Origin: Avibacterium volantium
GTDB taxonomy: Bacteria > Pseudomonadota > Gammaproteobacteria > Enterobacterales > Pasteurellaceae
DNA length: 64,000 nt
Reading direction: 5' to 3'
Assembly (NCBI RefSeq): GCF_900635775.1
Contig: NZ_LR134167.1
Coordinates: forward strand, 591,001 to 655,000
Part shown: positions 18,692-20,627 of the stretch, piece after piece
Layout of the letters: the number at the start of each line of letters is the position of its first letter
How positions within the stretch are numbered: the first letter of the stretch is position 1
Position numbers and translations under genes: made by a program
The notes under the pieces: generated by a model
What the model was told of the DNA's origin: nothing
Seen by the model: only the letters and a program-made list of their open reading frames with translations
Database searches by the model: none

Positions 18692-19300
18692 ATGTTATCA
18701 AATAAGCAGAAAATGCTCGCAGGGCTGGCGCATAAACCTAATGATCCAGAATTAGCACAACTTCGCATTGAAAATAAAAAGCGCCTTTTTCAATACAATA
18801 CGCAAATTTGCCCTTCTGAAACAGAAAAAAGAGCGGTGCTAATTCAGCAAATTTTAGGCAAATGCAAAAATGAACCCCATATTAACGCGCCGTTTTTTTG
18901 CGATTACGGCTGTTTTATTGAAGTGGGCGAAAACTTTTTTGCCAACTATAACTGCACAATATTGGATAACGGTGGCATCACCATTGGCGATAATGTGATG
19001 CTTGCGCCAAATGTGAGCCTCTATACCGTAGGCCACCCCCTTGATGCGGAATTACGCAGCCAAGATTGGGAACAAGCGCTGCCGATTACCATTGGCAATA
19101 ATGTGTGGATTGGGGGAAATGCCATTATCTTAGGTGGCGTAACCATTGGCGACAACGTGGTGATTGGTGCAGGTGCAGTGGTGAGCAAAGATATTCCTGC
19201 CAATAGCCTTGTGGTGGGTAATCCTGCCAAAGTGCTTCGTCAAATTACCGAGCAAGATAGGCTAAATTATATTAACAAATATATGGCAGACTATGCTTGA
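18692..19300 (+). CDS. Maltose/galactoside O-acetyltransferase family (Maa/NodL-like)
   Basis: The 202-residue protein has the N-terminal helical Maa domain (about 6-60, starting with KQKMLAGLAHKPNDPELAQLR). A left-handed beta-helix of hexapeptide repeats follows (INAPFFCDYGCFIEVGENFF to ITIGNNVWIGGNAIILGGVTIGDNVVIGAG). The catalytic-site histidine is in SLYTVGHPLDAE. These enzymes move an acetyl group from acetyl-CoA to free sugars; the substrate here is unknown. It overlaps the next gene (yqaA) by eight bases and is three bases from yqaB, so it is translated as part of that operon. Confidence 0.88.
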   Translation: MLSNKQKMLAGLAHKPNDPELAQLRIENKKRLFQYNTQICPSETEKRAVLIQQILGKCKNEPHINAPFFCDYGCFIEVGENFFANYNCTILDNGGITIGDNVMLAPNVSLYTVGHPLDAELRSQDWEQALPITIGNNVWIGGNAIILGGVTIGDNVVIGAGAVVSKDIPANSLVVGNPAKVLRQITEQDRLNYINKYMADYA

Positions 19301-19745
19301 TTGGCTGACCGATGGGCTATTGGGATCAAATAGCCTGTGGATAATGTTTAGCAGCGCCTTTCTTAGCGCCACCGTATTACCCGGCAATTCGGAAATTATT
19401 TTCCTTTTTCTCACCGCACCTTTTATTGGCGCGGTTTTCTCTATTGATCTTTTTGAATTGCTTGTTGCTGCCGTACTTGGTAATACATTAGGTGGAATGA
19501 CCACTTATATGATTGGACGTTGGTTTCCCAAATTAGAACAAAAAAATCTGCAACACAGCTGGGCATTGAACAACATTCAGCGCTATGGCATTTGGACATT
19601 ATTATTAAGCTGGCTGCCCATTGTGGGCGATGCCTTTTGCGCAATGGCAGGCTGGTTGCGTTTTAACTGGTTGAAATCATTATTATTAATAATGATTGGA
19701 AAATTGTTTCGTTATACGTTGTTATTATTAATTAGCCAAATTTAA
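19293..19745 (+). CDS. yqaA: YqaA-type membrane protein (DedA/VTT superfamily)
   Basis: The 150-residue inner-membrane protein has about four hydrophobic segments. The sequence FLSATVLPGNSEIIFLFL followed by a glycine-rich AAVLGNTLGGMTTYMIGRWF is the VTT/SNARE-associated signature. Later SWLPIVGDAFCAMAGWLRFNW fits the family's second re-entrant motif. DedA-superfamily members act in lipid carrier flipping; no specific role is shown for YqaA. Its start lies inside the acetyltransferase gene. No rho-independent terminator for this strand follows, because the hairpin downstream has its T-run on the other strand. Confidence 0.87.
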   Translation: MLDWLTDGLLGSNSLWIMFSSAFLSATVLPGNSEIIFLFLTAPFIGAVFSIDLFELLVAAVLGNTLGGMTTYMIGRWFPKLEQKNLQHSWALNNIQRYGIWTLLLSWLPIVGDAFCAMAGWLRFNWLKSLLLIMIGKLFRYTLLLLISQI

Positions 19746-19747
19746 AT

Positions 19748-19826
19748 AAAAAAATGCCACCTCGAAAGGTGGCGAATAACCTAAGGAACCAATTTTTATT
19801 AAACAACTGCAAGTTGCTATTTGTTG
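19748..19826 (-). ncRNA. Putative small RNA, copy 1 (paralogue of the MicA-like RNA)
   Basis: On the minus strand a segment beginning near ATAGCAACTTGCAG ends in a perfect terminator, GCCACCT-TTCG-AGGTGGC, followed by A and seven T. It shares with copy 2 the blocks ATAGCA(A/G)CTTGCAGTTGTTT, AATAAA, TTCCTTA and GTTATT. A weak -10 (TATAGC, 19838-19833) lies upstream, but I see no convincing -35 and no sigma-E motif. No reading frame of note is present. The RNA would be about 79 nt with an A/U-rich middle suited to Hfq. Existence as a transcript is inferred. Confidence 0.6.
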
Positions 19827-19888
19827 TGGAACGCTATACTAACATAACTTTAAGAAAATTTACAAAGAATTACAAAAAATAAATCAGG

Positions 19889-19917
19889 TTGTTCGCTTTT
19901 TGCACTTTGCTTATACT
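19889..19917 (+). promoter_or_regulatory. Candidate luxS promoter (TTGTTC, 17 bp, TATACT)
   Basis: TTGTTC (19889-19894) and TATACT (19912-19917) are 17 bp apart on the plus strand. A transcript from here would have a leader of about 200 nt and would run fully antisense across the sigma-E-type small RNA before reaching luxS. Confidence 0.5.
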
Positions 19918-19958
19918 AGATCGGTGTCAAACAAGATGTTTTAGCCGATCAAGGAAAG

Positions 19959-20030
19959 AAAAAGCCACTCATAAAGAGTGGCAAAAATAACTTAAGGAAT
20001 CAAATTTATTAAAACAACTGCAAGCTGCTA
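19959..20030 (-). ncRNA. Putative sigma-E-dependent small RNA, MicA-like, divergent from luxS
   Basis: A candidate RNA of about 72 nt runs from near 20030 to the T-run at 19963-19959 and ends in GCCACTC-tttat-GAGTGGC plus five T. E. coli MicA is also 72 nt, is also divergent from luxS, is also driven by sigma-E, and its terminator stem is also built on GCCACTC/GAGTGGC. The 5' region contains AGCAGCTTGCAG, followed by an A/U-rich stretch and TTCCTTA, which is complementary to a Shine-Dalgarno TAAGGAA. The primary sequence of the 5' seed differs from E. coli MicA, so orthology is by position and layout only. Confidence 0.68.
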
Positions 20031-20035
20031 TACTG

Positions 20036-20063
20036 TCAGACCGAATAATAACAGAAAAGTTCA
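20036..20063 (-). promoter_or_regulatory. Sigma-E-type promoter for the MicA-like small RNA
   Basis: Reading the minus strand, TGAACTT (20063-20057) is followed after 16 bp by TCTGA (20040-20036). The sigma-E consensus is GGAACTT, 15-17 bp, TCTGA, so only one -35 base differs. Confidence 0.72.
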
Positions 20064-20120
20064 CGATAAGTTGAATTTTTTTTACAAAAATTTACATTTT
20101 ATTCAGGAAAAGGAAAAATT

Positions 20121-20627
20121 ATGCCATTACTCGATAGCTTTAAAGTGGATCACACCAAAATGAATGCGCCAGCAGTGCGTGTCGCCAAAACAATGCGTAC
20201 CCCAAAAGGCGATGATATTACGATTTTCGATTTGCGTTTTTGTATCCCAAACAAAGAAATTCTGCCACCAAAGGGCATTCACACCTTGGAACACCTTTTC
20301 GCTGGTTTTATGCGCGATCACTTAAACAGCGAAAATGTAGAAATTATTGATATTTCGCCGATGGGTTGCCGCACTGGATTTTATATGTCCCTCATTGGCA
20401 CACCAAACGAACAGCAAGTGGCGCAAGCGTGGCTCGCCTCAATGAAAGATATTTTACAGGTGAAAGATCAAAAAGAGATTCCAGAATTAAACGAATATCA
20501 ATGCGGTACTTACACCGAACATTCCTTGCCCGAAGCCCATCAAATCGCGCAACACATTCTTGAACGTGGCGTAGGCGTAAACAAAAATGAAGATTTGCTA
20601 CTCGATGAAAGTTTGTTAGCACAGTAA
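20121..20627 (+). CDS. luxS: S-ribosylhomocysteine lyase, autoinducer-2 synthesis
   Basis: LuxS splits S-ribosylhomocysteine into homocysteine and DPD, the precursor of autoinducer-2. It recycles methyl-cycle waste and provides a quorum signal. The 168-residue product has the metal ligands His54 and His58 ([11 protein letters not shown]) and a third ligand cysteine in [10 protein letters not shown]. The catalytic cysteine is in [20 protein letters not shown] ribosome site precedes the ATG. Its upstream region carries the two small-RNA-like elements on the opposite strand. purT follows after 26 bp. Confidence 0.97.

Follow-up and report, generated by a model that had tools for sequence, protein, structure and literature searches.

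The luxS locus of Avibacterium volantium carries two tandem, homologous small RNA (sRNA) genes of the Rfam family JA04 (RF02732), which are probably divided between two envelope-stress systems. Judged by their promoters, the copy next to luxS (copy 1) would belong to sigma-E and the distal copy (copy 2) to Cpx, and the sequences by which the two RNAs would pair with mRNAs have partly diverged. The window, i.e. the whole stretch of 64,000 nt that was analyzed, has these features at the locus:

20121-20627, plus strand: luxS, 168 aa, divergent from both sRNA genes
20081-20095, minus strand: perfect GTAAA-N5-GTAAA (CpxR-box-like sequence motif), 5' of the sigma-E promoter of copy 1
20057-20062, minus strand: copy 1, sigma-E-type -35, GAACTT (motif scan; kept in relatives)
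20036-20040, minus strand: copy 1, sigma-E-type -10, TCTGA (motif scan)
19957-20029, minus strand: copy 1 (luxS-proximal) sRNA gene, JA04 family, about 73 nt (72.9 bits with JA04, below the gathering score of 81; 77.0 bits with our own model R1; fold z -3.6)
20014-20028, minus strand: copy 1, 5' hairpin with UUGCAGUU, the predicted pairing to the ompA start
19986-20004, minus strand: copy 1, conserved middle (TTTGATTCCTTAAGTTATT), by comparison diverged from the common family sequence
19964-19982, minus strand: copy 1, terminator stem-loop (terminator search)
19859-19873, minus strand: copy 2, CpxR-type box GTAATTCTTTGTAAA with one mismatch; second register GTAAATTTTCTTAAA at 19849-19863 (motif)
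19836-19844, minus strand: copy 2, extended -10, TGTTAGTAT (motif)
19749-19817, minus strand: copy 2 (distal) sRNA gene, conserved part (85.2 bits with JA04, above the gathering score; 85.8 bits with R1)
19803-19817, minus strand: copy 2, 5' hairpin (predicted fold)
19775-19793, minus strand: copy 2, conserved middle (ATTGGTTCCTTAGGTTATT), by comparison the common family sequence
19756-19773, minus strand: copy 2, terminator stem-loop (terminator search)

Two JA04 genes beside luxS

Both units are encoded on the minus strand and are flanked by luxS on one side and by a 150-aa open frame (19293-19745, plus strand) on the other. They share a 46-nt block at 85% identity with a spacing of 211 nt, and each ends in a perfect-stem terminator (19982-19964 and 19773-19756; two such stems compared with a mean of 0.4 in shuffles). 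The original prediction of two homologous minus-strand units with intrinsic terminators, divergent from luxS, was thus borne out, and its length of about 72 nt for the proximal RNA agrees with the computed length of about 73 nt (20029-19957), a sequence for which none of 200 shuffles folded as well. A U-rich stretch before the terminator and a 3' U-tail are present in the sRNA sequences. The transcript of copy 2 probably starts some 10-15 nt 5' of the conserved part, as judged from the -10. LuxS of the window is 100% identical to that of Avibacterium endocarditidis.

With the Rfam covariance model copy 2 is a member of JA04 (85.2 bits, cut-off 81); copy 1 stays 8 bits below the cut-off at 72.9 bits (E 2e-11). 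The RNA family is therefore already described, as an iron-regulated sRNA of Aggregatibacter; the part of the original prediction by which one copy has lost the sigma-E motif is supported. JA04 was the family matched at all 20 divergent relatives scanned, with 25 of the 26 matches under the cut-off. Our own covariance model, R1 (alignment A1), was built from 26 copies at luxS loci. It matched in 94 of 140 Pasteurellaceae genomes and in 25 of 43 genera. A scan of 93 sources, which cover part of the 94 genomes and include some genomes from two collections, gave 114 hits, 90 of them distinct by the 45 nt upstream plus the RNA. luxS is divergent and upstream in 87 of the 90. The exceptions are L178, L210 and L198, the latter two being weak matches (35.3 and 33.7 bits). 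Among the named loci scanned, the JA04 block was absent at luxS in Histophilus somni, Haemophilus sputorum, Actinobacillus ureae and A. indolicus.

In the model the RNA consists of a 5' hairpin and the terminator, and this structure holds in 96.5% of pair cells versus 82.5% in shuffles, with 110 two-sided pair changes versus 28; these figures lean towards the model because the alignment was fitted to it, and the covariation is mostly in the terminator. The terminator stems vary between relatives with compensatory changes, and the GCCACTC/GAGTGGC stem which had been taken as a likeness to MicA is not conserved; this likeness was discarded as evidence.

Several minor observations came from these scans. 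The 14-mer TTCCTTAGGTTATT was rejected as a wider module; 88 of the 96 places listed were JA04 loci themselves. At L210:954-1038 (genome G117), GTTCCTTAGGTTATT and a terminator come after a 5' part that looks unrelated, without luxS and without a sigma-E promoter; possibly this is a mosaic sRNA with nothing but its 3' half in common with JA04. Second 14-mer hits were also seen in G122 and G123. A record titled Pseudomonas stutzeri NCTC11607 (L011) has a Pasteurellaceae-type luxS/JA04 locus, and its label is probably wrong.

The promoters of the two copies

Copy 1 is preceded by GAACTT (20062-20057), a 16-nt spacer and TCTGA (20040-20036), 7 nt upstream of where the conserved part of the unit begins. 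This is the near-perfect sigma-E promoter of the original prediction. The pattern GAACTT-N16-TCNNA occurs three times in 928,000 strand-bases of the genome (the window and 20 stretches of 20 kb each), and the promoter of copy 1 is one of the three. A sigma-E-type promoter was present in 77 of 92 distinct JA04 upstream regions. The genome encodes rpoE (303.7 bits, cut-off 236), itself preceded by GAACTT-N16-TCTAA which starts 86 nt before the rpoE match. The combination by which we assigned genes to a sigma-E regulon, GAACTT-N16/17-TCNNA with rpoE in the genome, was found for copy 1 only. Elsewhere, at L274:13188, the gene for a large membrane protein, which looks like the sulfatase/phosphoethanolamine-transferase type, has a sigma-E-type motif starting 58 nt upstream of its start codon.

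Upstream regions of copy 2 lack a sigma-E promoter, as had been claimed. What had been missed is its replacement on copy 2 by a CpxR-type box and an extended -10, as read from the sequence. Thirteen sigma-E-less JA04 copies beside luxS were found, in 13 genomes of five genera. Each of these copies has GTAAA-N5-GTAAA in the 90 nt preceding it, eight perfectly and five, the window's copy 2 included, with one mismatch; 12 of the 13 have TGnTAnnnT as an extended -10. Per 90 nt of the genome sample 0.0005 perfect boxes are expected, and 0.008 with up to one mismatch; dinucleotide shuffles match the observed box with a probability of 0 to 0.03 each. As relatives of one another, the 13 genomes do not represent independent events; the case rests on conservation across genera. 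Where the -10 is clear (12 copies), the distance from it to the start of the best box upstream is 19, 29-31 or 39-40 nt, hence the boxes lie on about one face of the helix. The literature describes GTAAA(N)4-8GTAAA as the CpxR consensus, with binding of CpxR~P to Yersinia GTAAA(N)5GTAAA sites (PMC3158067), and binding of A. pleuropneumoniae CpxR-P to a related TTTAC-N7-TTTAT site (PMC7255013). The genome encodes CpxR (346.4 bits, cut-off 341) and CpxA (593.5 bits, cut-off 486). Copy 2 therefore has what we used as the sequence mark of a Cpx regulon member, i.e. GTAAA-N5-GTAAA in the promoter with CpxRA in the genome.

Is CpxR the cognate regulator? With a lesser, still appreciable probability copy 2 is under another regulator of direct repeats with 10-nt spacing, or the GTAAA repeats are an AT-rich element of the UP type. 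A Pfam search of the genome retrieved, apart from CpxR, only two OmpR-type regulators, ArcA (465.7 bits, cut-off 334) and a QseB-like protein (313.5 bits, under the cut-off of 345). The repeats of copy 2 do lie in very AT-rich DNA, and at L187 a similar repeat near luxS persists where no sigma-E sRNA copy was seen. Yet GTAAA with N5 spacing agrees with the published CpxR consensus, whereas the ArcA motif is based on GTTAA with an 11-nt period and differs from the repeats of copy 2. Further, the repeats are kept at zero to one mismatch in 13 of 13 copies, compared with the shuffle probabilities above. CpxR remains our preferred regulator of copy 2.

Genome-wide, GTAAA-N5-GTAAA is not enriched (18 sites versus 25 for the reversed control pattern). 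No box with up to one mismatch was found in the 540 nt upstream of cpxR; another open frame is located there, and the cpxR promoter may be further away. Some of the 18 perfect boxes precede envelope genes, suggestively lptC and a DUF882 gene beside a YkuD/Scaffold L,D-transpeptidase. In the same genome, L229:1471-1700 has three GTAAA half-sites between genes for a YkuD/Scaffold-domain L,D-transpeptidase and a DUF882 peptidase. In E. coli, ldtD is Cpx-regulated.

The box is not confined to sigma-E-less copies. It precedes 9 of 77 sigma-E copies perfectly, and 13 of 77 with up to one mismatch. The perfect ones are all in the genera g1 (all seven Avibacterium), g3 (one) and g9 (one), with none in other genera; in all seven Avibacterium sigma-E copies examined the box is at -66/-67. 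In the window the box (20081-20095) is also close to luxS, 26-40 nt ahead of its start codon. Copy 1 may receive a second input through it, or it may serve luxS, and luxS itself could be Cpx-controlled. Because a CpxR-type box precedes both copies in three of five genera, a strict split of one alarm per copy is blurred.

Probable kinship with MicA, the iron label and predicted targets

The original prediction compared the locus to E. coli MicA. In position this was confirmed: the layout is the same as in Enterobacterales, where the MicA model (RF00078) exceeded its cut-off at 13 of 13 luxS loci, in every case with the match oriented divergently from luxS. Identity with the MicA family was rejected. 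The Rfam comparison which had been proposed as a check turned out positive for JA04 at copy 2 and negative for MicA, with 23.1 bits at copy 1 (cut-off 41) and no match over the cut-off in any of the 140 Pasteurellaceae genomes; the E. coli control was positive. Sub-cut-off MicA matches were seen in 55 of the 140, eight of them at the JA04 locus (G000, G010, G011, G012, G024, G025, G027, G032). The five best (26.5-30.8 bits) are away from it, with no luxS in the stretch fetched and no sigma-E motif in the preceding 60 nt; they look like chance matches.

JA04 resembles MicA in its orientation divergent from luxS, a sigma-E-type promoter, a length of about 70 nt and a 3' terminator. It differs in the middle sequence and in failing the MicA covariance model. 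Further, JA04 has a 5' hairpin whereas the 5' end of MicA is free, and the Avibacterium version is duplicated with a rewired promoter. ompA is the main target of MicA and only a predicted one for JA04. We compared the 5' sequences of both RNAs anchored at the promoter. Register 0 had the highest likeness of 21 registers (0.419; next 0.391 at +2), with a column-permutation mean of 0.279 (P 0.0012). Since position, promoter type, length and register-0 likeness agree, the JA04 and MicA loci probably share descent, the RNA having diverged beyond the Rfam model. JA04 would thus probably be the positional counterpart of MicA. The luxS position, ompA role and sigma-E control of MicA are documented in PMC2956633 and PMC1804206.

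JA04 of Aggregatibacter actinomycetemcomitans is the same RNA family at the same locus beside luxS. It has been described as regulated by iron and Fur, whereas here a sigma-E promoter is found family-wide; in addition Avibacterium, unlike Aggregatibacter as described, has a second copy with a Cpx-type promoter. That JA04 is mainly iron-responsive and Fur-controlled, the sigma-E-like motif being secondary, we regard as improbable. It would be in line with the reported Fur regulation of JA01-JA04 in Aggregatibacter (Amarasinghe 2012, as cited in PMC4144887 and in Rfam 13), and most Aggregatibacter loci read have a weaker promoter form, TCATA with a 17-nt spacer. Against it, the sigma-E motif is kept across the family, and the nontypeable H. 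influenzae orthologue is not Fur-regulated, has no Fur box nearby and is silent in mid-log growth according to PMC4144887. Silence in mid-log fits an RNA made by sigma-E only under stress. The main regulator is more likely sigma-E than Fur; in the best reading, JA04 is the sRNA that sigma-E controls at the luxS locus of Pasteurellaceae.

Two other sRNAs invite comparison. CpxQ is cut from the cpxP mRNA and, with other Cpx-linked sRNAs, forms an sRNA arm of Cpx in Enterobacterales; unlike CpxQ, the Cpx-type JA04 copy would be a paralogue of a sigma-E RNA with a promoter of its own. Rna01 of Actinobacillus pleuropneumoniae is, like JA04, a Pasteurellaceae sRNA with a sigma-E-like promoter sequence, GAACTT-16-TCTTA, and predicted outer-membrane targets; it differs in its locus, sbcB-eriC, and the published primers are without the JA04 block (PMC9577009). 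One Rna01 primer had no match in the five genomes searched. The same study (PMC9577009) reports the classic envelope-stress sRNAs as absent from the A. pleuropneumoniae genome.

ompA was chosen as candidate target before any ranking, from MicA and from the presence of ATGAAAAAAACTGCAATC at the ompA start. The duplex energies used for ranking take no account of accessibility, and the 5' pairing arm is inside the predicted hairpin. On this basis ompA ranked second of 401 starts for copy 1 (-25.3 kcal/mol), with a predicted two-part pairing over the ribosome site and first codons, and 13th of 401 for copy 2 (-22.0 kcal/mol). Single arms ranked ompA 32 and 30 for copy 1, and 60 and 126 for copy 2. 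Ranks as high as that of ompA were also reached by several unrelated genes. In 38 genomes both RNA and ompA were mapped (of 45 labelled JA04-bearing; Avibacterium background; G032 represented by its Cpx-type copy). There, the genome's own ompA was in the top 5% for its own sRNA in 31, with a median rank of 3.5. The seven misses were G035 (rank 23), G138 (21), G044 (100), G050 (357), G084 (97), G087 (181) and G097 (170); in five JA04-bearing genomes from five genera ompA thus ranked only 97 to 357 of 400. With a consensus JA04, 2 of 25 genomes that lack the RNA had ompA in the top 5% (median rank 32). Within the first 24 coding bases, ompA has the motif AACTGCAA in 39 of 45 JA04-bearing genomes (39 of 44 without G065) and in none of 25 JA04-lacking ones (71 loci, one without a start); these labels follow clades, the lacking genomes being other genera or species groups, and are not independent evidence. 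We consider ompA a leading predicted target, and not a universal one.

AACTGCAA occurs near any ATG at 32 sites versus 15 for the control; ompA is the one that was followed up. Ribosome sites of the TAAGGAA type are possible pairing partners of the conserved middle. A scan for this Shine-Dalgarno sequence gave 131 sites versus 69 for the control pattern, mostly taken as ordinary ribosome sites. Porin P2 was discarded as a target; for copy 1 it had rank 40 of 402, counted from 0, and for copy 2 rank 215.

Duplication, divergence and a model

Two R1 matches were present in 26 genomes. After G020 and G117 were left out, the second hits of which are distant and score about 35 bits, 24 pairs beside luxS remained; 22 were inspected, G100 and G139 being placed by match positions alone. 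Both copies have a sigma-E promoter in 10 of the 22, i.e. in seven genomes of g18 (including Haemophilus haemolyticus and H. aegyptius) and in G079, G121 (copies about 1.3 kb apart) and G138. RNAs of these pairs are 90-99% identical, except in G061 (85%). In the other 12, namely six Avibacterium, G010-G012, G033, G099 and G101, a proximal sigma-E copy is accompanied by a distal sigma-E-less one, at identities of 69-85%.

In the conserved middle, all seven Avibacterium sigma-E copies have GATTCCTTAA, whereas the six Cpx-type copies have retained GGTTCCTTAGG, which most of the JA04 family shares. The drift is in the sigma-E copy, hence in the middle the Cpx-type copy is the more conservative of the two. 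The two Avibacterium RNAs, with partly different middles, probably have partly different targets.

We regard it as unlikely that copy 2 is a duplicate in decay, driven by a chance promoter and without a separate function: a luxS-proximal Haemophilus copy (L087:1647-1717) does seem to decay, with a changed middle (GGTTACTTAAG) and an imperfect terminator behind a sigma-E promoter that is kept, and one of the seven Avibacterium genomes (G026, L183) has only the sigma-E copy, but in each of the 13 genomes copy 2 has preserved GGTTCCTTAGGTTATT together with a terminator-like hairpin and its T-run, it is copy 1 that drifted in Avibacterium, and G032 (L187) has retained only the sigma-E-less, Cpx-type copy.

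Our model extends from gene structures, family, distribution, promoter motifs and the presence of rpoE, cpxR and cpxA to transcription, factor binding, Hfq use, targets and physiology. Copy 1 would be transcribed by sigma-E RNA polymerase under envelope stress. Very probably its mode of action would be that of MicA: helped by a chaperone such as Hfq, the RNA would pair with the start regions of outer-membrane mRNAs and block their translation, ompA being the best-supported candidate. Copy 2 would have arisen by tandem duplication and then lost the sigma-E promoter. It would be read by the housekeeping polymerase from the extended -10 and activated by CpxR on the phased GTAAA-N5-GTAAA repeats. 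Two envelope alarms would thus feed one family of pairing RNAs. The fuller proposition, that a duplicated sRNA of the MicA type has been divided between a sigma-E copy and a CpxR copy with pairing sequences starting to diverge, is put forward tentatively.

If correct, this would be a worked example of a regulatory RNA that was duplicated and rewired, and JA04 would be the Pasteurellaceae descendant of the MicA locus and not an iron sRNA. As a sigma-E RNA, JA04 would provide much of the Pasteurellaceae (Haemophilus, Pasteurella, Aggregatibacter, Rodentibacter and Avibacterium) with a testable envelope-stress RNA and with ompA (P5) as candidate target. Natural controls exist in genomes with the sigma-E copy only, the Cpx-type copy only, both, or two sigma-E copies. 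To our knowledge, MicA-type RNAs are known mainly from Enterobacterales. The new part, deduced from sequence, would be a duplicated sRNA split between sigma-E and Cpx. Among the matches listed from titles and abstracts of the open-licence literature, none linked JA04 to sigma-E or MicA or described an sRNA pair split between sigma-E and Cpx. An iron RNA-seq study of Avibacterium reported 121 sRNAs, and its main text mentions neither JA04 nor luxS (PMC7970244); JA04, MicA and luxS are absent from the main texts of PMC10204968 and PMC4986893.

Elsewhere, the window contains nine tRNA genes and, at 2493-2543 on the minus strand, a ribosomal protein L31 leader (RF03157, 46.5 bits, cut-off 33.2).
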